Shown here: positions 40,996 to 51,294 of the stretch, in pieces
Position numbering within the stretch: the stretch's first letter is position 1
Layout: each line of letters begins with the position of its first letter
DNA from: Atopobium fossor DSM 15642
GTDB lineage: Bacteria; Actinomycetota; Coriobacteriia; Coriobacteriales; Atopobiaceae
Direction of reading: 5' to 3'
DNA: 64,000 nt
Assembly: GCF_000483125.1 (NCBI RefSeq)
Contig: NZ_AXXR01000003.1
Span: 1-64,000, forward strand
Made by a program: the position numbers and the translations under genes
Notes under the pieces: generated by a model
Databases searched by the model: none
What the model was told of the DNA's origin: nothing
What the model saw: the letters and a program-made list of their open reading frames with translations, nothing else

Positions 40996-41649
40996 ATGAG
41001 ATTCAAACGTCTTACCGCCCATCACCAAGCTGTATTTGCACAATATGGCCTGTCAAAAATTAATCAAATTAACTGCAGTTGTAATATTTTTAATCCAGGA
41101 GAAATTGTTATTAACGAGGGTGACGCGTTTACAAGCTTTTGGCTTGTAGTAAAGGGACGTGCCAAGGCATTTAGACTGGGCAACAATGGCAAAACTCTTA
41201 TTATGAGCAGGTACATTTCCAGTGGCGTTATTGGCGATATTGAACTTATGAGCAACTTACCACAAGCAAAAACAACTATAAGTGCTATCTCACAACTAGA
41301 GTGTATTCAACTTCCCTATTCACTCTGCCAAAAAGAACTTACCCACAATATTATTTTTTCCAACAAACTTGGCAACGGCTTAGCTCTTAAGTTAGCAAGC
41401 TCAGCAGATTCTTATGTTTCATCTGCACTTTACACAGGTAAACAGCGCTTATGTGCTTATATCCTCGATAATTCCAACGCAGGAGTTTTTTCTGGTGTAC
41501 TTACCGAAGTATCTGCTTCTATTGGCATGAGTTATCGCCACATGTTTAGATTGCTCGATGAACTCTGCAATCAACATATTCTTCGCAAAGAAGAGCGAGG
41601 GTTTATCATTCTTAATAAGTCAGCTCTTGAACATGCATTGCATGGGTAG
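40996..41649 (+). CDS. Crp/Fnr-family transcriptional regulator
   Basis: 217 residues: an N-terminal cyclic-nucleotide-binding-like beta barrel (about 20-130; GEIVINEGDAFTSFWLVVKGRAK), a dimer helix and a C-terminal winged helix (ASIGMSYRHMFRLLDELCNQ). The cAMP phosphate loop is not conserved, and the cysteines (two at 27-29, one at 94) do not form the FNR cluster pattern. It resembles the YeiL type more than CRP. GGAG precedes the ATG. The likely target is the divergent DMT transporter. Confidence 0.9.
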   Translation: MRFKRLTAHHQAVFAQYGLSKINQINCSCNIFNPGEIVINEGDAFTSFWLVVKGRAKAFRLGNNGKTLIMSRYISSGVIGDIELMSNLPQAKTTISAISQLECIQLPYSLCQKELTHNIIFSNKLGNGLALKLASSADSYVSSALYTGKQRLCAYILDNSNAGVFSGVLTEVSASIGMSYRHMFRLLDELCNQHILRKEERGFIILNKSALEHALHG

Positions 41650-41741: not shown

Positions 41742-42716
41742 ATGTCAGCTAGCGAAGAAACAACGATTGTTTTTGATGGAGTTGCTCCTCAAAAACAAAC
41801 TGGACCCGTAAGCTCTCCAAATATCACCGCAAGTATTGATAGAAAAAATCTAAGTAATAGATCTATTAGGATTATTTATACGCCTACTCCAACTGCAATT
41901 AGTACATTCTTCTATATACAACGCGTTGGTTACTATGAGGCAATGAGTGGGTTTTTTCGTACTTCTCCTCATTTAGAGGGGTATAACATTTTCTTAACAA
42001 TATCTGGATCAGGTTATTTTGAATTTGAGGGTCAACATCAGGTTCTACAGTCAGGTGATATTGTTTGGCTTGACTGTAAGAAAGACTACAAACTCGGCGT
42101 TGAAGAACAGTCTTGGAACTATTACTGGATTCAATTTAATGGTAATTCAGCGCGTGGCTACTATAAAGAATTTACTAAGTATGGAAACAACTATACGCAC
42201 ATGAGCAATTTAGAGAAATTCAAAAACCTTTTCGAAGCGATACTTAACCTATCAAAAAGCACTTCAATTCGAAGAGAGATTTTATCGAATGGTTCTATTG
42301 TACACATTATGACCTTGCTACTTAAAAGTAGAGTAGACTCGAGCCTCACGCTTAATTCAGTACCTGAGTATATTAGACAATCGGTCAATTATCTTAATTG
42401 GAACTATACCAAAAAGATTAATTTAGATGACTTATCTGAACAAGTTGGAGTCAGTAAGTTTCACCTCTCTCGGAATTTTAAACATTATGTTGGTGTAACA
42501 ATCAGCGAATATTTAAATGCCAACAGGATGCGCTATGCACGTGATTTATTAAAGTATACCGACTATCCTATTAAATCCGTAGCTCAGCTTTGCGGTATAC
42601 CTCAACCAAGTCATTTCTCTGCTTTTTTTAAAAAAATAGAAGGATATACTCCTCTTCAATACCGAAAGAAATGGGAAGCAACTAGCTATTTTGAAGAAAA
42701 TGAACCAAACCCATAG
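41742..42716 (+). CDS. AraC-family transcriptional regulator
   Basis: 324 residues. An N-terminal cupin-like sensor domain (about 60-170, with GYFEFEGQHQVLQSGDIVW) and a C-terminal pair of helix-turn-helices (about 215-315; LDDLSEQVGVSKFHLSRNFK and PIKSVAQLCGIPQPSHFS, then YRKKW). A 50-residue polar N-terminus precedes the cupin. It is AT-richer than its neighbours. It lies convergent to the PTS EIIC gene with a shared terminator, so it may control the sugar island. Confidence 0.92.
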   Translation: MSASEETTIVFDGVAPQKQTGPVSSPNITASIDRKNLSNRSIRIIYTPTPTAISTFFYIQRVGYYEAMSGFFRTSPHLEGYNIFLTISGSGYFEFEGQHQVLQSGDIVWLDCKKDYKLGVEEQSWNYYWIQFNGNSARGYYKEFTKYGNNYTHMSNLEKFKNLFEAILNLSKSTSIRREILSNGSIVHIMTLLLKSRVDSSLTLNSVPEYIRQSVNYLNWNYTKKINLDDLSEQVGVSKFHLSRNFKHYVGVTISEYLNANRMRYARDLLKYTDYPIKSVAQLCGIPQPSHFSAFFKKIEGYTPLQYRKKWEATSYFEENEPNP

Positions 42717-42832: not shown

Positions 42833-44230
42833 CTAACCATTGAGTTCTTTCTTAATTTCAACATTACGCGCTGACATTTCCTTCATCAGCCATACAAAGC
42901 CTACAAGCCAAATAATCAAAACAATAATTCCTACTGGCTTGAGAGAAAGACCATTTGCAATTGCCCAACGGAAGTCAGGGCACTCGAGCGTAGACCAAGT
43001 AATAGAGGGATTGGATCCCATATTAGCAAGTGCATCTGGAGAGTACTGCTGCGCAAGCTGAGTGCATGCGGGAGCAAATGAAGAAGCAACGAGCAGATAC
43101 ACAGGAGTCGTAATAAGACCAAGAATAAACATCTTTACAAGGTTGCCGGAAGCAATGAAGAGAGCAGGGACAGCAACACAGATGTTAACGATACCGGCAA
43201 ATGGCAAAACGGTATTTCCAGCTGGCGCAAGCGCTACAGCCAAAATAATCTCAAATGGAATCAAAAGGATGGTAAGAACCCAAAGCTCATTAGAGCCAGC
43301 AACAATAGGCCAGTCAAGACCAATGTAAAGCTCACGCCCGTCATTAAACTTATTCTTCATCCAATCGCCAACAGCATCAGAAATTGGAGACAAAGCCTGC
43401 ATAAAGAGTTTGGAAACCATCGGGAAAAGTTGCATTGCAGTAGCAGCCTGAATACCAAGAGTAAGTGCAGCCTGAAGTTCGTCATAAGCAACGAAACCAA
43501 GTACGATACCAATCAAAAGACCCATTACAGCATTCTCACCAAAGATACCGAGCTTATTACGAAGCCACTTAGCATCGTAATTTTGATTCTCAATTGCAGG
43601 AATCTTCTCGAGAAGCTTCTCAAAAGGAAGCATGAAAACTGCAGTAAAGGTCATGGAGTGAGGAACCGTTACACCAGGAATACCAGTGAGTTTCTCAACA
43701 GTGGGAGCCCAAGCATCACCAATCTTAAGACCAATAATTGCCATAAGGCCTGCGCCAACAAATGCTAGAACCATAGATACCACAGGAGTCATGCCAGCAG
43801 ATGTGCATGCAAAGTTAATAAGAACAGCAGTAAGCAGAAGGTTCCAAACATTCCAAAGATCAACATTAAGAGTATTGGTTTTATTGGTAACCAACATGAT
43901 GATGTTAATCACAATAAGCAGAGGGAAGCAAAGAACGCCAAAGGGCCAAGCCCATGCAATTGCAGACATTGCTGGCCAACCAGTATCAATAGAAGTCAAC
44001 ACAATACCAGTTTTTGTAGCAAGACCTTCTGCAGCAGGCTGAATTGCACCAGTCATAAAACCGGTAAGAACATTCATGCCCGTAAAAGCTACACCAAGAG
44101 TAAGTGCAGCGATAAAAGCATCTCCTGGCTTCATCTTAACCGCAAGACCAAGAATAAACATAATCAGTGGAACGAAGACTGCGGCTCCGAACCCAAGGAT
44201 GTAATTAACAACGTTTAGCAAAACATCCAT
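42833..44230 (-). CDS. PTS galactitol-type EIIC permease
   Basis: A 465-residue membrane component of a PTS of the galactitol (EIIC-GAT) family, with about ten transmembrane helices. Visible hallmarks are the N-terminal LGFGAAVFVPLIMFILGLAVKMKPGDA, IGDAWAP and the conserved TGIPGVTVPHS loop. The matching EIIB is at 45884-46177, on the other side of the aldolase and an unknown gene. No EIIA is in the window. AAGGGAG precedes the ATG. A strong hairpin separates it from the rest of the cluster, so it is likely expressed from its own promoter in the 185 AT-rich bases upstream. Confidence 0.9.
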   Translation of the reverse strand: MDVLLNVVNYILGFGAAVFVPLIMFILGLAVKMKPGDAFIAALTLGVAFTGMNVLTGFMTGAIQPAAEGLATKTGIVLTSIDTGWPAMSAIAWAWPFGVLCFPLLIVINIIMLVTNKTNTLNVDLWNVWNLLLTAVLINFACTSAGMTPVVSMVLAFVGAGLMAIIGLKIGDAWAPTVEKLTGIPGVTVPHSMTFTAVFMLPFEKLLEKIPAIENQNYDAKWLRNKLGIFGENAVMGLLIGIVLGFVAYDELQAALTLGIQAATAMQLFPMVSKLFMQALSPISDAVGDWMKNKFNDGRELYIGLDWPIVAGSNELWVLTILLIPFEIILAVALAPAGNTVLPFAGIVNICVAVPALFIASGNLVKMFILGLITTPVYLLVASSFAPACTQLAQQYSPDALANMGSNPSITWSTLECPDFRWAIANGLSLKPVGIIVLIIWLVGFVWLMKEMSARNVEIKKELNG

Positions 44231-44415
44231 TGAGAACTCCCTTCAAAGACATTGGATACTGTTTGGCGTGCTCTCTCCTGCACGTGGTGCTGGCACTTCA
44301 CCATGTACACGATATTAATACACATAAAGAAATAAAACTCTATAAATATTCGTAATAAAGAATTATTTTGACTTAATACTTTAAACGAATGAATTTTAAT
44401 AATACTTATATTAAA

Positions 44416-44450
44416 TCTTTGGAGTGAATAGAATATATTCACTCCAAAGA
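44416..44450 (-). terminator. hairpin between aldolase and EIIC genes
   Basis: A perfect 15-bp stem (44416-44430 and 44436-44450) with a 5-base loop. On the minus strand it follows the aldolase stop directly and is followed by TTTAATAT. It would end the main transcript or protect its 3' end. The rest of 44231-44460 is AT-rich and carries no gene. Confidence 0.75.
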
Positions 44451-44460
44451 TTTTAGGGGG

Positions 44461-45279
44461 CTAAACGTTTAAATAACCCTCACGAGGGGTAATTCCCCAC
44501 TGATTGGCAAGCTCCATCAACTCAGCATCATTGATGCCACCGTTAAACTTTCCGGTACGAATAACTTCAAGGTACACACCGCAAAGCTTATCAACAGACT
44601 CCAGCAATCCAAAAGCATCATGTAAAGACTTGCCTGCTGAAAATACGCCGTGGTATTGCCAGATTACAAACTTGCGGTCTTTCATCTTTTCCAATGTCAA
44701 ATCAGCAATATGCTGTGTGCCACAGGCACAATATGGAACCATACCAATACCTTCTGGGAACATAAAAAGTGCCTCTGGAATCAAGCGCCAAAGTGCAAGC
44801 GTAAAATCACGTTCATCTGTAGGACCTACGTGTGTCATTGTCAAAACATTTGTTGCATGATTATGCATTACTACGCGCTGCTCGGGATCAATTGCAAGAC
44901 GGGCTGCATGTGTAGCAATATGTGCAGGAAACTCAGATGTAGGTTTATTGCCATGTTCGAGTCCAAAGGCAATCTCGTAATAGTCTCCATTTTCGGGAAT
45001 ATATACGATTCCAATCAAGTCATCAGGATTATCGCGAAGCTCACGGAAATACGATCCACTAGAGGTTGTAAGAATATACTTGCCACGAACAGCATCAGGT
45101 ATTTGAAGCTCAACTTTACGTCCAGAGCCAATGGTGTAATTGAGTGATGTTGCTTCTTTCTCGGTCAGAATATAAGTAATATTACCTCCGTTAGCTTCAT
45201 CCCAATTCTTGTCCCACATTAAGTAAGCAAGTTCTTGAGCTTCCTTTACCGCACCAATCTCTTTCCAGTCAGTCGCCAT
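44461..45279 (-). CDS. rhaD: rhamnulose-1-phosphate-aldolase-like class II aldolase
   Basis: 272 residues, the length of RhaD. Zinc ligands His139, His141 (MHNHAT) and His210 (WQYHG), and the general acid/base Glu116 (SEFPAH) lie almost where E. coli RhaD has them; NGGNIT and the TTSSGSYF phosphate loop are also present. RhaD-type enzymes split ketose-1-phosphates into DHAP and an L-aldehyde. Rhamnose isomerase and rhamnulokinase are missing here, so the real substrate is probably a PTS-imported ketose-1-phosphate. AAGGAG precedes the ATG. Confidence 0.9.
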   Translation of the reverse strand: MATDWKEIGAVKEAQELAYLMWDKNWDEANGGNITYILTEKEATSLNYTIGSGRKVELQIPDAVRGKYILTTSSGSYFRELRDNPDDLIGIVYIPENGDYYEIAFGLEHGNKPTSEFPAHIATHAARLAIDPEQRVVMHNHATNVLTMTHVGPTDERDFTLALWRLIPEALFMFPEGIGMVPYCACGTQHIADLTLEKMKDRKFVIWQYHGVFSAGKSLHDAFGLLESVDKLCGVYLEVIRTGKFNGGINDAELMELANQWGITPREGYLNV

Positions 45280-45314
45280 TTTCTCTCCTTAGCTGTAGCA
45301 ACGGATTGAAACTA

Positions 45315-45851
45315 TTACTCTGATTCATTTGTCTGCAATATTTCTTGCCGACGAATAAAATCAGCGTTTTCCTTCTCTCGATATTCTTCGACCGTTAAGC
45401 CACTCTTAGCTGCGACTTTTTCATACTCGCGGACAAGGGCTTCTTCATAGTCAATGCCCTTTTTTATGGAAAGTCGTTTTGCACGCTTTTCACGACGCTG
45501 GCGCTGTCGCTCATCACGCATTGCAGCCATGATTTCGTTGCGCTGTTCAGCAGTCATGCCATCTTTGCCAAAACCAAAACGCTGCCTATACTCAGCAACC
45601 TGCATGTTATAGTCATGCAAAATATAATCTTTACCGTATCGTTCAACAAAAATACCGATAACTAATGCTCCTATACCCAAAAGAATATTTGAAGTAAAGA
45701 AACTAGCAATTAACAGTAAGGCTTCTACGACAATAAAAATTAACCAACCAGCTTTTGAAATATTAAATTTATTATCAGGCGCTGCATGTAAGTCTTCCCA
45801 GCGCTTTTTAGAAGCCTTTCCTGGAACGATATTTTTCTTACGCTTAGACAA
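45315..45851 (-). CDS. unrecognised two-helix membrane protein
   Basis: 178 residues: a basic N-terminus, two transmembrane helices (about 34-75; a hairpin), then a long charged helical C-terminal half rich in Arg, Glu and Lys (about 90-178) that should form a coiled coil on the cytoplasmic side. No PTS EIIA or enzyme motif is visible. The start is TTG at 45851 after GGAAG. It lies between EIIB and the aldolase genes (33 and 35 bases apart), so it is co-expressed with the sugar enzymes. Function unknown. Confidence 0.75.
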   Translation of the reverse strand: MSKRKKNIVPGKASKKRWEDLHAAPDNKFNISKAGWLIFIVVEALLLIASFFTSNILLGIGALVIGIFVERYGKDYILHDYNMQVAEYRQRFGFGKDGMTAEQRNEIMAAMRDERQRQRREKRAKRLSIKKGIDYEEALVREYEKVAAKSGLTVEEYREKENADFIRRQEILQTNESE

Positions 45852-45883
45852 CTGTGGTCTTCCAAATTCAATAAAACCGGAGT

Positions 45884-46177
45884 TTAGCGCTTATTAACTT
45901 CATCAATAGCCGCAAGAAGCTTTTTCAGCTCTGCATCTTGGCCCATTCCCGTTAAGAAGCAAACGCCGTTAAATACAGGAATACCCCAGTCTGTATCTTC
46001 CTTAACAATAGAGATGTAAATATCAGCGTTCTTGATGTAGTGCTTAAGTGATTTGATATCAACTGCCTCGCATTCTGCATCTGCACCCTCAGCCTTGAGA
46101 AGGCGTTGAACCTTTGATGCAACAGTCTGAGATGTTGCAACACCGGAACCACAAGCAACAATGATACGAGCCGTCAT
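45884..46177 (-). CDS. PTS galactitol-type EIIB subunit
   Basis: A 97-residue soluble PTS component. Cys9 in ACGSGVATS is the phosphocysteine that passes phosphate to the sugar. The small size and the P-loop-like N-terminus match the EIIB of the galactitol/ascorbate group. It partners with the EIIC at 42833. AAAGGA precedes the ATG. It lies 80 bases after the fused kinase gene. Confidence 0.93.
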   Translation of the reverse strand: MTARIIVACGSGVATSQTVASKVQRLLKAEGADAECEAVDIKSLKHYIKNADIYISIVKEDTDWGIPVFNGVCFLTGMGQDAELKKLLAAIDEVNKR

Positions 46178-46258
46178 AATAAAAATCCTTTCTCGACATT
46201 ACGTCAGAACCCATGGCCTAATGTGGCCGATTACATCTAATAGCTTAATATGTTTTTA

Positions 46259-47959
46259 TCATTCAGGTAATACTGATTTGATACACAAAGCCATAGAAGT
46301 TGCACCGGCATCTGGAGTACCTAAACTACGTTCAGCAGCAGGGCGAGCACGTCCAACCTTTGGAACCAGATTTGCAGTTGCCCGTGCAGACTCATCTGCA
46401 ACAGTAGATGCAATAGTCCATGCATCTTTAATATCCATGCCCTTATTAGCGGATATCGCAAGTGATTCACCAAATGGAATGAGTACATCTAGCATGGTTT
46501 TATCACCACGCTTTGCGCCACCCAATGAAAGCATTTTTTCATAGGCTGCCCTTACGGCATCAGCAACCATCTTGGTGGTATATTCATCTGCAGTATCACC
46601 GATTACAGCACCTGCCGCCTGAAGAGCACTCCCCCACAATACACCAGATGTTCCACCAGCTTTTGCAGCCCAAGCTTTACCAGCTTCCTTTAAAACAGAA
46701 CCTGCTGCGGCACCTTTAGAACGCGCAGTTTTAGCGGCTTCATATGCAAAAGAAGAGCCTTTAACCATGCCACGACCATGATCGCCATCACCAGCAATAC
46801 CATCAATTTTTGCAAGTTCAGACTCCGCGCCTGCAATAACATCAGCCATACGGCTAAAAGCATCTACTAGATAATCAGCAACTACATTAGATGCTTCAGA
46901 ACCTAGCTCAAAAGTTTCAACTACTTCGGACTGCTCTGCATAAACCTTACGTTCACCCGCTGCCATAGAACTTGCTCCTTTGCGGAAAGAAGCAGTATCG
47001 GCAGGAGCACTCCAATAAGTTTCTAACTCATCATCCAAGTACTCAACAGAAAGCGCAATGCCTTCCATATCAAGGGAAGTTACATACTCGCCAACTAAGG
47101 GCTCTACTAAGGTATATCCTCTTTCTTCAAGAAGTTGGTAAACTGTACCCCATACAACAAAAAGTTCTTCATACTTAGTTGACCCAAGACCATCAAGAAT
47201 GACAGCTATACGTTTGGTGTCGTCTGCAGGAGCTTCAGCGAGAACACGCTCAACTAAAATTTGAGCAACTTCTGCAGCAGACTTAAGATTATCTTCACCA
47301 ACGCCAGGTTCACCATGAATACCCTGGCCAACTTCCATCTTGCCAGACGGAACATGGAACAATGGCTCACCTGCACCAGGAAGTGTGCAGCCACGAAAGC
47401 CCATAGACATAGTACGCGTACGGTCATTTGCTTTGGTTGTAATACGAACTAAATCATCGAAAGAAACACCTGCAGCTGCAGCTGCACCAGCAGCTTTAAA
47501 GACCATAAAAGTGCCTACATTACCACGGCGTTTTTCAACTTCTTCAGGGGCAGCAGAAGCTACATCATCAGTAATATAAAAAGAGCGAGCATCAACACCT
47601 TCTTCAATGAGCGTATCACGCGCCATATTAAAGTTCATTTTATCGCCGGCATAATTACCACCAACAATAAACAAGCCACTACCCTGCTCAACAGAACGTG
47701 CTACACCCAAAACATCATCAGTAGAAGGAGATGTAAACACATTTCCAACAACTGTTGCATCCATAAAGCCATCGCCAATAATTCCGCAAAATGCTGGATA
47801 GTGTCCTGACCCACCACCATTGATAACAGCGATTTTGCCTTCAGGCATTTTTGTTGCACGCGCAACGCCGCCAGGAACTTCAACTACATAATCAGGATAA
47901 GCTGCCACATATCCATGAAGCATATCCTCACGAAAATTTTTCGGATCATTAAAAAGCAT
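46259..47959 (-). CDS. fused DhaK-DhaL short-ketose kinase
   Basis: A 566-residue single-chain kinase. The DhaK half (1-330) has His53 (GGGSGHYP), Asp106 (NYAGDKMNF) and substrate-binding His215 (GIHGEPG), which forms a hemiaminal with the ketone in this family. The DhaL half (about 355-566) has the ADP/Mg-binding GDGDHG motif (Asp391, Asp393) and KVGRARP...LGTPDAGATS. ATP-dependent kinases of this build phosphorylate dihydroxyacetone or tetruloses such as erythrulose. The C-terminal block resembles the erythrulose kinase group (inference). AAGGAG precedes the ATG. Confidence 0.92.
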   Translation of the reverse strand: MLFNDPKNFREDMLHGYVAAYPDYVVEVPGGVARATKMPEGKIAVINGGGSGHYPAFCGIIGDGFMDATVVGNVFTSPSTDDVLGVARSVEQGSGLFIVGGNYAGDKMNFNMARDTLIEEGVDARSFYITDDVASAAPEEVEKRRGNVGTFMVFKAAGAAAAAGVSFDDLVRITTKANDRTRTMSMGFRGCTLPGAGEPLFHVPSGKMEVGQGIHGEPGVGEDNLKSAAEVAQILVERVLAEAPADDTKRIAVILDGLGSTKYEELFVVWGTVYQLLEERGYTLVEPLVGEYVTSLDMEGIALSVEYLDDELETYWSAPADTASFRKGASSMAAGERKVYAEQSEVVETFELGSEASNVVADYLVDAFSRMADVIAGAESELAKIDGIAGDGDHGRGMVKGSSFAYEAAKTARSKGAAAGSVLKEAGKAWAAKAGGTSGVLWGSALQAAGAVIGDTADEYTTKMVADAVRAAYEKMLSLGGAKRGDKTMLDVLIPFGESLAISANKGMDIKDAWTIASTVADESARATANLVPKVGRARPAAERSLGTPDAGATSMALCIKSVLPE

Positions 47960-47976
47960 ATATCTGCTCCTTAATC

Positions 47977-48621
47977 TTATTTAGAGAAGTAATTTTTCAT
48001 GCCAGCATATACGTACTGTCCCGCAAGGGCACCTTGGTCAATAACGCCTTTGGCCTTTGCAGCATGTACCGCTGCTTTACCATACTTAGGAAGCATATCT
48101 TTGGTTGCCTCACAACCTTCAGACGCACCAGTTACTAAAGCATCTACTAGCTCAGTAAAGCTTGCCTCTGCATTATTCTCTAAAAATGCAGTTGCTTTCT
48201 TTGCAGCAGCATCTACAGAGTCAAAAATAGTTCTATCACCTAACTCGCACTTTCCACGTTTCTGAATACCAGCAGCAAATGCAGTTGCAAACGTTACAAG
48301 ATCTGCTGGAGCGAGTTCGGTCTGCCCTTTGAGATTTTTACCAGCTTCCATTACACCAGACGCCATGAGTGTTCCCATAGTTGATGGAACGAGATTTTGC
48401 ATTTTCATAGCGCCTTTAAAAAGCATCTTTCCTAAATCGTTTTCTGATGCAAAGTCACGCAAAAATCCTGGAAGGGCGCTATAACCTTTGCTCATAGTTA
48501 AACCAAGGTCACCATCACCCATAGCTGCATCCATCTCACAAAGTTCATCTTTTTTCTCAACAAAAAGATTACCAACAGACTCAAAAAGATCTGCTACATC
48601 CGCAAGAGATAGTGTATCCAC
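47977..48621 (-). CDS. dhaL: DhaL subunit of dihydroxyacetone-type kinase
   Basis: A 214-residue nucleotide-binding subunit. Asp31, Asp36 and Asp38 (DAAMGDGDLG) bind Mg-ADP or ATP; PSTMGTLMAS-like and GDRTIFDS segments also match DhaL. It forms a pair with the DhaK encoded just upstream. The GTG start at 48621 sits eight bases from AAGGAG, better than the GTG three codons earlier. No DhaM gene is near, so the phosphate donor (PTS or ATP) is open. Confidence 0.9.
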   Translation of the reverse strand: MDTLSLADVADLFESVGNLFVEKKDELCEMDAAMGDGDLGLTMSKGYSALPGFLRDFASENDLGKMLFKGAMKMQNLVPSTMGTLMASGVMEAGKNLKGQTELAPADLVTFATAFAAGIQKRGKCELGDRTIFDSVDAAAKKATAFLENNAEASFTELVDALVTGASEGCEATKDMLPKYGKAAVHAAKAKGVIDQGALAGQYVYAGMKNYFSK

Positions 48622-48642
48622 TACAATCACTCCTTACTAAAG

Positions 48643-49635
48643 TTACTTTTGGCAAATAAAAGGAGTGTGTACAGGATAATCAAAATAACCTTTAAGCTCT
48701 TCGTCTACCTTACAGATAGAGATAGAAGCACCCATCATTTCCATTGAGGTTGCAAACTCACCAGTCCAAGAGCGATAAATGTTTACCCCCTTGGCTTCAA
48801 GCTGCTTACGAACGGAATTATTGAGAATATAAAGTTCTTCAATACTTGTGGCTCCGAGACCGTTAATAAGAACAGCAACTTCATCGCCTTCGTTTAGAGA
48901 CATATCCTTAAGAATCTCATCCACGGACTCTGCAGCTAACTCATCAGCAGTTTTAATTGGACCATTCCAGACACCAGGCTCACCATGAATACCCATACCA
49001 AAGGCCATTTCATCTTCACTGAGATTAAAATTCGAATGTCCAACTTCAGGAACAATGCAAGGTGTCAGCGCAAAGCCAACTGTACGCACATTATCTCCGG
49101 CCTTTTTAGCTGCAGCAGCAACCTCTTCTAAGGTTCCCATTTGATCAGCTTTTGCACCGGCAGCTTTATACATAAAATAAATACCAGCTACACCACGACG
49201 AGCTTCAGGATTATCATTGGACAGCACATCATCAGCTCCAACTAGAGAAATAGATGCAATATCATCCATTTCTAGCATTTCGGCTGCCATATCAAAATTC
49301 ATGATGTCGCCCGTATAATTACCATACAGATAAAGAATGCCTGCACCGGCTTCAACCTCTTTTGAAATATTATAAATTTGCTCAGCAGAGGGAGATTGGA
49401 ATACTCCACCAACACCGCAACCATCAATAAGACCTTCACCAACATAACCAAGAAAAAGAGGAAGATGTCCGGTTCCACCGCCGGTAATAATTGCAACCTT
49501 ACCATCTTTTTTAACTGCATTGCAGTAGCAACGAAGATCATCAGCAGCACATTTAACCATATCAGGATGAGCTGCATAGATGCCTTGAAGCATCTCGTCT
49601 ACGTAATTCTCTGGCTTATTGATAATCTTTTTCAT
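48643..49635 (-). CDS. dhaK: DhaK subunit of dihydroxyacetone-type kinase
   Basis: A 330-residue substrate-binding subunit. His57 (GGGTGHLP), Asp110 (NYTGDIMNF) and His217 (GMGIHGEPG) occupy the positions of the catalytic and covalent residues of E. coli DhaK. It differs throughout from the DhaK half of the fused kinase, so the two are paralogues, probably for different ketoses. It is the first structural gene of the island operon; AAGGGATG precedes the ATG. Confidence 0.92.
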   Translation of the reverse strand: MKKIINKPENYVDEMLQGIYAAHPDMVKCAADDLRCYCNAVKKDGKVAIITGGGTGHLPLFLGYVGEGLIDGCGVGGVFQSPSAEQIYNISKEVEAGAGILYLYGNYTGDIMNFDMAAEMLEMDDIASISLVGADDVLSNDNPEARRGVAGIYFMYKAAGAKADQMGTLEEVAAAAKKAGDNVRTVGFALTPCIVPEVGHSNFNLSEDEMAFGMGIHGEPGVWNGPIKTADELAAESVDEILKDMSLNEGDEVAVLINGLGATSIEELYILNNSVRKQLEAKGVNIYRSWTGEFATSMEMMGASISICKVDEELKGYFDYPVHTPFICQK

Positions 49636-49678
49636 ACCTGCATCCCTTCAAAAAATCGAACACAAGTGACTTGGTTTA

Positions 49679-49688
49679 TATTATACTG
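49679..49688 (-). promoter_or_regulatory. promoter -10 of the dhaK operon
   Basis: On the minus strand CAGTATAATA contains a perfect TATAAT -10 box 44 bases before the dhaK start. The same ten bases occur in front of the GntR gene (50601-50610). A good -35 is not seen at 17 bases; activation or an operator overlapping the -10 is possible. Confidence 0.55.
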
Positions 49689-49701
49689 CGTGCACATAAA
49701 A

Positions 49702-49738
49702 AGCAGACATGCGACCTTAAACACCGCGCATGTCTGCT
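49702..49738 (-). terminator. terminator of gntR gene
   Basis: A perfect 12-bp stem, AGCAGACATGCG (49702-49713) and CGCATGTCTGCT (49727-49738), with a 13-base loop; on the minus strand TTTTTATG follows. It separates the regulator from the dhaK operon. Confidence 0.75.
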
Positions 49739-49821
49739 ATTTGGTAGCAATATTTTTATATTTTTATTAACGCAATTAAACTAAGAATAATTTAAATAAC
49801 CCTATACAGAATATTATTACC

Positions 49822-50562
49822 CTAATCGTTGCGACTTGTCTGAGAACTAATTACACAACGGTTTGCAGGCAACCAAACACTACCCCACTCAAAAGGAGAA
49901 CCATTTTCTAGGCGAACCAGTTGATCTAGGTTAAGCACAGGCGCATGTTCATCACAACGCAACCATTCAGAACGCTTTTTACCAGCCGTGCGAGCACTAT
50001 AAATCATCTCTGACTTGCCAATGCCATGACCGCTCAAACGCTCCACCGCTTCAAACAGACCTTCCTCATTAAAATCCACATCCGCTAAACCAGGAAGCAA
50101 CTTCAAGTTAAGATGGCTCTCAATAAACATAACTGGCTCACCAAATACTTCTCGCACACGAGCCAGATATAAATAGGAGTCCCCACGGCCAATGCCCAAA
50201 GCCTCAGCGCAAGCTTTGCCTGCGGGAAGTATGCTTTTCTCGACAACGGTAGTTTGATACGGAATGCCCTGTTCGTTCATGGACTCCGCAAAGGAAAGAA
50301 GCGAGTTGGAAGAGGGACGAGCCATAACTGGCTGAGTTACATAGGTACCACGACCACGCTGCTGGACAAGAAGACCTTCATCCACCAATGCGCGGATACC
50401 TTTTTGTACAGTACCACGCGATAGGTCAAGCATGTCCATGAGCTCATGCTCAGACGGAATGCGGTCATCAACACCCCATTCCTTGGAGTATATTTTTTCA
50501 CGCACAAAGTCAGAAACCTGCACGTACAAAAGCGAATCAGACGATTTTTCGAATTGCGCCAT
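49822..50562 (-). CDS. GntR/HutC-type regulator of the sugar island
   Basis: 246 residues: an N-terminal winged helix (about 10-78; IPSEHELMDMLDLSRGTVQKGI, shown in part) and a C-terminal UTRA ligand domain (about 95-240) that binds a sugar phosphate or similar metabolite. It most likely represses the dhaK operon, which starts just downstream. AAGGGG precedes the ATG. Its promoter (-10 TATAAT on the minus strand, 50601-50610 region) lies within the end of the PLC-like gene. Confidence 0.92.
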   Translation of the reverse strand: MAQFEKSSDSLLYVQVSDFVREKIYSKEWGVDDRIPSEHELMDMLDLSRGTVQKGIRALVDEGLLVQQRGRGTYVTQPVMARPSSNSLLSFAESMNEQGIPYQTTVVEKSILPAGKACAEALGIGRGDSYLYLARVREVFGEPVMFIESHLNLKLLPGLADVDFNEEGLFEAVERLSGHGIGKSEMIYSARTAGKKRSEWLRCDEHAPVLNLDQLVRLENGSPFEWGSVWLPANRCVISSQTSRND

Positions 50563-50586: not shown

Positions 50587-51294
50587 CTATGAACTGCTCG
50601 TATTATACTGTGTTGCTCCATCTAATAAGTTTGAAATTATAATATTATGAGCCGCTTGCGCGGTTGTTTCAAAAAACTCAGTGCTCAGCAGCCGATAACT
50701 TGGGCTTGGCATAGCAGGCGTGTTAGTGTCTACTATGCGTTGCGCCGCATCGATTGCTGCTGTTACATCGGGCTTATCGATAGGATACTGCGAAAAGCTA
50801 TGGGCTGCACGAATCAGTGTAGGTGTAAGTTTTGGCACCATAGATATGGATAAACTCTTTCCGTAGTCATCAAAATCAGACTGTTTGAGCACACGCACGC
50901 CATCGCCTGGTTTATAACCTGCAGCAAGCGCAACCTTACGAGCAGCCAGATTATAGCTATGATCACACACTAAATGTGCCCAAGCACCAAGTGCTAAATC
51001 ACGCTCTGGCGAAGGTCCATCGGCTAACAGGGGTACCACATACAAATCCCAAAACTCGTTATAGCAAGGTGTAGGCATAAACTCATCTACCGCCACATGC
51101 GTACGACAATAGCTCAGCGTTTTGGTAAGCGGCTGCACCATGTAGCCCACATAAATATCTGGTACAAGGTTACCAAACAAAAAACAATTAGCGCTGGCAA
51201 TACCCAAAGTGCACGGCTCTTTCTCCTGAAAGAGCCGCTCAACATGAGCAATATGTACATTCCAGCTAGGCAAACTAACCGCGCAACTCGGCAC
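50587..51294 (-). CDS. zinc-dependent phospholipase C-like protein
   Basis: A 235-residue mostly helical protein whose histidine and aspartate spacing (NVHIAHVE, LVPDIY, RTHVAVDEF, AWAHLVCDHSYN) resembles the zinc-dependent phospholipase C / S1-P1 nuclease-like family. No signal peptide is visible, so a cytoplasmic hydrolase is more likely than a secreted lipase. The start GTG at 51294 overlaps the pheT end by 20 bases, with weak ribosome-binding sequence; a later TTG is possible. Confidence 0.65.
   Translation of the reverse strand: MPSCAVSLPSWNVHIAHVERLFQEKEPCTLGIASANCFLFGNLVPDIYVGYMVQPLTKTLSYCRTHVAVDEFMPTPCYNEFWDLYVVPLLADGPSPERDLALGAWAHLVCDHSYNLAARKVALAAGYKPGDGVRVLKQSDFDDYGKSLSISMVPKLTPTLIRAAHSFSQYPIDKPDVTAAIDAAQRIVDTNTPAMPSPSYRLLSTEFFETTAQAAHNIIISNLLDGATQYNTSSS

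Follow-up and report, generated by a model that had tools for sequence, protein, structure and literature searches.

A phosphotransferase system, a RhaD-like aldolase and Dak-type kinases clustered in Atopobium fossor: a candidate sugar pathway resembling fructolysis

Introduction

In mammalian fructolysis, ketohexokinase and aldolase B act before triokinase (TKFC), so that the ketose 1-phosphate is cut before any second phosphorylation and a kinase of the Dak fold takes the free triose. Triokinase is described as the third step of fructose metabolism in passages of PMC6429413. Here we describe a gene cluster in which a phosphotransferase system (PTS), a RhaD-like class II aldolase and Dak-type kinases stand together. 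It lies in a 64,000-nucleotide stretch of the genome of Atopobium fossor DSM 15642 (contig NZ_AXXR01000003.1, positions 1 to 64,000), here called the window. We give a probability of about 0.5 to the reading that the cluster encodes a PTS-to-aldolase sugar pathway working like mammalian fructolysis, a reading that goes from observed genes, residues and linkage to reactions and a sugar that we infer throughout. The analogy is one of logic only, as the PTS would import and phosphorylate the sugar here, the aldolase is a class II zinc enzyme and the sugar would be a different one.

The L-rhamnose operon (RhaB, RhaA and RhaD) likewise relies on a RhaD-family class II aldolase. In contrast, the window has no RhaA, a PTS takes the place of isomerase and kinase, and the aldolase has a His-Asn-His (HNH) zinc motif and falls on the other side of the RhaD tree. 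The PTS routes for fructose and D-tagatose likewise make a ketose 1-phosphate, but there a kinase (FruK or TagK) precedes a bisphosphate aldolase, and no such kinase is present in the window cluster. In the fructose case the ketose 1-phosphate made by the fructose PTS goes through FruK and then to a bisphosphate aldolase. The DhaKLM systems for glycerol and dihydroxyacetone (DHA) share the DhaK and DhaL families and active-site residues with the window. Unlike them, the window cluster has neither DhaM nor a glycerol dehydrogenase, its kinases miss the equivalog cut-offs, and they are tied to a PTS and an aldolase. The tetritol pathways use erythrulose kinases of the Dak family; unlike these pathways, the window cluster has no visible tetrose isomerase. 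D-tagatose use through a PTS and TagK has been found in evolved Escherichia coli, the second phosphorylation apparently preceding the aldolase according to passages of PMC10101011.

Among the titles listed by searches of the open-licence PMC literature, which could have missed a paper, none concerned this gene set. Each part comes from a known family. What appears undescribed in the literature searched is how the parts are ordered and linked, together with the PTS-linked aldolase group described below.

Results

Eight genes on the minus strand (42833-50562) encode, in order of transcription, a GntR regulator, DhaK, DhaL, a fused DhaK-DhaL kinase (DhaKL), EIIB, a small membrane protein, a RhaD-like aldolase and EIIC. 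The genome is 1.65 Mb in 4 contigs and is 97.6% complete. The features of the locus are as follows.

49822-50562, minus strand: GntR/UTRA regulator (Pfam/NCBIfam)
49690-49760, minus strand: terminator-like hairpin in the GntR-DhaK gap, -24.5 kcal/mol with the stretch folded alone
48643-49635, minus strand: DhaK-like subunit; His57, Asp110 and His217 present
47977-48630, minus strand: DhaL-like subunit; GDGDLG motif
46259-47959, minus strand: fused DhaK-DhaL kinase; Dak1 and Dak2, PRK14479 family, His215
45884-46177, minus strand: PTS EIIB; PTS_IIB, Cys9
45315-45851, minus strand: small membrane protein, 178 residues; hydrophobic stretch at about residues 28-73, then a charged tail
44461-45279, minus strand: RhaD-like class II aldolase of the PTS-linked group; Aldolase_II; Glu116, His139-Asn140-His141, His210, Glu169
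44385-44462, minus strand: hairpin 3' of the aldolase gene; 18-pair stem, -24.2 kcal/mol
42833-44230, minus strand: PTS EIIC of the Gat family; EIIC-GAT
41742-42716, plus strand: AraC-family regulator, in convergent orientation to EIIC; genome G004 has a 62% identical gene on its EIIC contig (C78)

All eight genes lie on the minus strand where the initial annotation had placed them, and their Pfam and NCBIfam families agree with it. The residues it named are also in place: His217 in DhaK, His215 in the fused kinase, Cys9 in EIIB, and Glu116, His139, His141 and His210 in the aldolase. It did not remark on the absence of an EIIA gene, on a FucA-type sister cluster or on a group of PTS-linked RhaD loci in Lactobacillales. 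The aldolase and the kinases align by sequence to solved structures; some of the DhaK assignments are positions that we take to be part of the active site. EIIC scored 226 bits against a cut-off of 24.2 (EIIC-GAT) and EIIB, with its active Cys9, 42.5 against 23.6 (PTS_IIB), which fits a Gat-type PTS, although the operon has no EIIA. Both fall short of the galactitol-specific proteins (EIIC 273 vs 542 for GatC; EIIB 45 vs 95 for GatB, its best NCBIfam model).

To place the cluster among its relatives, 140 genomes of the family were sampled and Collinsella provencensis was taken from a named collection. An aldolase at least 59% identical to that of the window is present in 6/140 family genomes, the window's included, and C. 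provencensis adds one. EIIB and EIIC adjoin the aldolase in all seven loci. The core EIIB-membrane protein-RhaD-EIIC recurs in six Coriobacteriia loci besides the window, from six genomes; the grouping is thus not due to chance. A Dak-type kinase adjoins this core in 4/6 loci (L035, L036, L038 and L056), is broken in L039 and is unlinked in G004. DhaKL adjoins the core in L035, L036, L038 and the window, and is the sole kinase type in the Olsenella-type loci L035 and L036. At the C. provencensis locus the only kinase genes are DhaK and DhaL, divergently placed; a stop codon and the list of open reading frames show the two to be separate. A divergent version of the whole set occurs in G036 (DhaKL 33%, RhaD 36%, EIIABC).

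The RhaD locus of G004 is split over two contigs, with its kinase trio on another contig (L110). On the upstream contig, a homologue of the gene at 50587 in the window (39%) is followed by EIIA, EIIB, the membrane protein, RhaD and the first part of EIIC. The other contig holds the rest of EIIC, a FucA-like aldolase, AraC (62% identical to that of the window) and pyruvate kinase (70%). The place of EIIA in G004 is taken in the window by GntR and three kinase genes, as if a kinase module had been gained or EIIA lost; the window also has no counterpart of the FucA-like gene. The RhaD-type cluster of G051 (L039:8867-12960) looks decayed, with EIIA and DhaKL broken and transposase-like open reading frames (by eye) upstream. 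G051 also has a FucA-type cluster (L111), in which DhaK and DhaL lie in several frames.

The fused kinase was followed separately. It occurs at 60% identity or more in 19/140 family genomes, and examination of all 19 neighbourhoods placed it beside PTS genes in 18. In 13/19 it belongs to a cluster of the order EIIA-EIIB-EIIC-FucA-like aldolase-membrane protein-DhaK-DhaL-DhaKL. The remaining six comprise four beside RhaD and EIIC (the window, L035, L036 and L038), one beside EIIA and an EIIC cut off by a contig end (L113, G048), and the unlinked gene of G004. Identity between window and FucA-type proteins is 81-89% for DhaK, 62-71% for DhaL and 70-84% for DhaKL, the DhaK and DhaL ranges omitting L111, whose pieces match at 49-76%. 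EIIC of the window shares 67-68% identity with RhaD-type EIIC of full or nearly full length, as opposed to 45-48% with FucA-type EIIC. The window's GntR is 46% identical to the GntR beside FucA-type cluster L105.

Inspection of their sequences revealed that the FucA-like enzymes keep the Glu and the HxH...H zinc site, and the best PDB matches of the L105 enzyme are fuculose-phosphate aldolases. None of the three that were scored reaches the FucA or AraD cut-off, so their reaction, too, is one that we infer. RhaD-like and FucA-like aldolases replace one another, and the kinase type varies, among otherwise similar clusters. The FucA-type clusters have a PRD-type regulator (by eye) in 10/13 cases and a Cof-type HAD phosphatase nearby in 11/13. 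The HAD phosphatase was considered as a member of the window cluster and rejected; the nearest (35%) is about 5 kb away, behind genes taken as pheS and pheT.

The window aldolase belongs to the RhaD family (276 bits vs 170, PRK03634) and keeps the catalytic Glu and three zinc His residues. Its Glu169 is the counterpart of RhaD Glu171', as that residue is presented in passages of PMC6202814. It falls under the equivalog cut-off of rhamnose-pathway RhaD (TIGR02624, 266 vs 401). With the same model, eight PTS-linked members scored 245-295 and the G036 enzyme (L114) 274, compared with 370, 386 (start-trimmed) and 452 for three RhaB-linked enzymes.

The tree built from 32 RhaD-like proteins (drawn with a midpoint root) is divided by a supported branch (96/94). 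On one side are 7 Coriobacteriia and 6 Lactobacillales enzymes, all PTS-linked, and 4 orphans. On the other are 13 enzymes with a RhaB homologue nearby, L054 without RhaB, and L114. The RhaB-linked set (n=13, including L049-L053) was labelled with RhaA and RhaB probes; a RhaA homologue lies near 8/13 and was not found in the fetched stretch of L044, L046, L048, L050 or L051. No RhaA- or RhaB-like gene was found near the 14 PTS-linked RhaD loci, L114 included. The HNH zinc motif is present in 13/13 members of the PTS-linked group and in 0/13 RhaB-linked enzymes, which have Cys (nine), Ser (three) or Thr (one) at the middle position. Among the orphans three have HNH and one has Ser; L054 has Ala. 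Three orphans from three genomes of one genus (L041, L042 and L043) have Thr and Gly in place of Asp27 and Asn30, so their substrate-binding loop differs, and neither EIIC nor EIIB homologues like those of the window were found beside them. A scan of genome contigs with the single aldolase returned little or nothing.

The fused kinase passes the cut-off of the PRK14479 dihydroxyacetone kinase subfamily (697 vs 492 bits). The equivalog cut-offs for DHA kinases are missed by DhaK (353 vs 406), DhaL (93 vs 138) and the fused protein (318 vs 575, glycerone kinase). No EIIA-Man gene, the mark of a DhaM, was found in the cluster; three are present elsewhere in the genome, all on contig C3. Relatives of the fused kinase at 48-56% identity in other Actinomycetota and on plasmids have mixed contexts, which do not fix its substrate.

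Beyond the class, the window EIIC matched 253/395 Lactobacillales genomes sampled. From the matches at 46-53% identity, 17 neighbourhoods in 16 genomes were picked by hand rather than at random. EIIA-EIIB-EIIC-RhaD is present in 6/17 (G562, G780, G487, G707, G665 and G606), and 8/17 have a FucA-like gene instead of RhaD. In 2/17, tblastn found no aldolase. G653 has a rhamnose operon nearby and, in addition, a class II aldolase from a different family (PRK06357). The two loci with a FucA-like gene that were typed further (L144:6728-10503 and L153:6160-9980) combine EIIABC with a kinase of the 1-PFK family and a small class II aldolase, which in L153 is of the PRK06357 family. They resemble the kinase-before-aldolase order of the tagatose and fructose routes and are a kinase-first counterpart of the window pathway.

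EIIA-2 matches number seven in the window's genome. One of them (G000:C3:163314-163751) lies within a second PTS operon and is 52% identical to the EIIA of sister cluster L035. The window EIIB and EIIC may borrow the EIIA of this operon. The second operon (G000:C3, L093:3246-10459) also encodes a GntR regulator (41% identical to that of the window), a protein of the triosephosphate isomerase family, a YjbQ/UPF0047-like protein (by eye), EIIB, EIIC, a small membrane protein, a class II aldolase/epimerase-like protein, an aldolase like fructose-bisphosphate aldolase (FBA) and a DeoC-like protein (by eye).

The small membrane protein of the window had no Pfam or NCBIfam match at E 0.001. Its hydrophobic stretch has room for two helices. 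A membrane protein occupies the same place in six other RhaD-type loci at 23-28% identity. A search of 296 genomes of the phylum gave 2 matches including the window's own, so the protein is too divergent to serve as a marker. Homology between the membrane proteins of RhaD-type and FucA-type clusters is not convincing (hhalign probability 17%).

Gaps within the cluster are 12 bp (DhaK-DhaL), 17 bp (DhaL-DhaKL), 81 bp (DhaKL-EIIB), 32 bp (EIIB-membrane protein) and 35 bp (membrane protein-RhaD). Wider gaps of 186 and 230 bp separate GntR and EIIC from the rest, and each contains a hairpin of about -24 kcal/mol. A generic promoter and terminator scan listed neither hairpin and gave no excess over shuffled sequences (promoter-like 15 vs 21.6; terminator-like 7 vs 8.2). 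Adjoining the AraC gene is a CRP-like regulator (40996-41646). Its best model, YeiL, is under cut-off (101 vs 180), and no homologue was found in the fetched sister loci.

Discussion

We propose that EIIC and EIIB, with an EIIA encoded elsewhere, would import a ketohexose and phosphorylate it to a ketose 1-phosphate. The RhaD-like aldolase would then cut this product, with no second phosphorylation beforehand, to dihydroxyacetone phosphate (DHAP) and an unphosphorylated triose, which would be glyceraldehyde, or DHA if the sugar were branched. Phosphorylation of the triose by the Dak-type kinases would let both halves enter glycolysis, under control of GntR and perhaps AraC. Because the set contains no isomerase, ketose kinase or ketose-1-phosphate kinase, the PTS must supply the ketose 1-phosphate. 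In most of the Coriobacteriia loci examined a Dak-type kinase, fused or two-subunit, goes with the aldolase. An aldolase that leaves a free triose gives a kinase an obvious job, and if the product is a triose, the sugar would have to have six carbons and carry a hydroxyl on C6. Comparative genomics bears out the initial annotation in tying together the PTS, the class II aldolase and the Dha-type kinases. Its assignment of C3 or C4 ketones to the kinases is narrowed to the free C3 product of the aldolase, since kinase types differ among clusters that share PTS and aldolase and since RhaD-like and FucA-like aldolases interchange.

The chemistry of other enzymes suggests candidate sugars. Passages of PMC6202814, PMC5434028 and PMC3869271 report that RhaD joins DHAP to L-glyceraldehyde, giving L-fructose 1-phosphate, and to D-glyceraldehyde, giving D-sorbose 1-phosphate and D-psicose 1-phosphate, and that FucA makes D-psicose 1-phosphate from D-glyceraldehyde. 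With DHA as acceptor the product is dendroketose after dephosphorylation, at conversions of 73% for E. coli RhaD and 17% for FucA (same sources, in part). Passages of PMC6429413 state that human triokinase phosphorylates both D-glyceraldehyde and DHA and that the activities of a DHA kinase from Citrobacter are similar. By analogy, D-allulose (D-psicose) or D-sorbose would fit. D-allulose is ranked first, with D-sorbose, because D-psicose is the one sugar that both aldolase types are reported to make from D-glyceraldehyde and because D-glyceraldehyde 3-phosphate would be returned. A bolder proposal, which we hold only tentatively and consider rather doubtful, is that these clusters are a bacterial counterpart of fructolysis for rare ketohexoses, built from a PTS, a HNH subfamily of class II aldolases and a Dak triokinase with modular swaps. 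The sugar might be D-allulose, D-sorbose or, boldest of all, dendroketose, whose 1-phosphate would give DHAP and DHA. In such a modular cassette the aldolase type, RhaD-like or FucA-like, would be set by the configuration at C4, and the kinase could be fused or two-subunit.

Several observations weigh against a fructolysis-like pathway. There is no EIIA gene within the cluster. The two-subunit and fused kinases are both kept, in the window and in the FucA-type clusters, where one should do. In the tree, the G036 aldolase stands on a long branch on the RhaB-linked side, and its motif is His-Thr-His, so the PTS link may have arisen twice. Around relatives of the fused kinase at 48-50% identity, five annotated plasmid neighbourhoods were examined, and none has a PTS. 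3/5 have a sugar phosphate isomerase/epimerase and PdxA, one of these also a 3-oxo-tetronate kinase adjoining a gene named aldolase; 1/5 has a carbohydrate kinase, glycerol-3-phosphate dehydrogenase and a sugar ABC transporter, and 1/5 nothing telling. Four of these five contexts are thus of the sugar-acid or polyol type. The remaining contrary evidence is taken up with the explanations that it favours.

The strongest of these, though unlikely, is an ordinary DHA role, in which the Dha genes phosphorylate glycerol-derived DHA made by GldA-type enzymes and merely adjoin an unrelated PTS-aldolase pathway. The genome has nine matches to iron-containing alcohol dehydrogenases. Two of the six typed further are of the glycerol dehydrogenase family and exceed the subfamily cut-off (426 and 526 vs 336), so the kinases could serve such DHA. 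The DhaK-DhaL-DhaKL trio of G004 also has no PTS or aldolase in the fetched 18 kb. However, both GldA-type genes lie away from the cluster (on contigs C1 and C3 vs C2), the kinases miss the DHA-kinase equivalogs, and the fused kinase keeps company with PTS genes in all but one of the 19 family genomes that have it.

Somewhat less probable still is that the substrate is a 6-deoxyketose or pentulose such as L-rhamnulose or L-xylulose, cut to DHAP and lactaldehyde or glycolaldehyde that is then reduced, while the kinases act on another ketone, e.g. erythrulose. RhaD family membership is consistent with this. No Dak kinase was found in the six Lactobacillales EIIABC-RhaD loci (fetched 12-17 kb), and in one of them (L147) a lactaldehyde reductase (648 vs cut-off 537) follows RhaD; these loci fit a 6-deoxy, C5 or shorter sugar. 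A DkgA-like aldo-keto reductase (278 vs cut-off 425) lies near the C. provencensis cluster, and the nine alcohol dehydrogenase matches elsewhere in the window's genome also speak for it. Against this explanation, the pathway would give the kinases no substrate, the window cluster includes no reductase, and the aldolase group is separate from RhaB-linked RhaD.

It is very improbable that the aldolase-like protein is a 4-epimerase or works in the synthetic direction: both RhaD and FucA have been reported to catalyse 4-epimerisation (passages of PMC5434028), but the cleavage Glu and zinc ligands are kept in 14/14 PTS-linked members aligned, and an epimerised product would find no sugar-phosphate kinase and second aldolase in the window cluster. 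Standard L-rhamnose catabolism, which the initial annotation rightly set aside, is the least credible explanation, for although rhamnulose-1-phosphate aldolase is the best family of the enzyme, its TIGR02624 score, HNH motif and place in the tree all separate it from RhaB-linked enzymes, RhaA (PF06134) has 0 matches in the genome where 3/14 control genomes were positive, and the window, to which the RhaB search was limited, has no RhaA- or RhaB-like gene.

If the fructolysis-like reading is true, gut and rumen-type bacteria would have a PTS-sugar route with a single phosphorylation before the sugar is cut. Annotation would be corrected from rhamnulose-1-phosphate aldolase to ketohexose-1-phosphate aldolase for the PTS-linked enzymes, and from dihydroxyacetone kinase to triokinase. 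The exchange of FucA-like for RhaD-like enzymes offers a direct test of substrate stereochemistry. The reading would also predict which microbes may use low-calorie rare sugars such as allulose.

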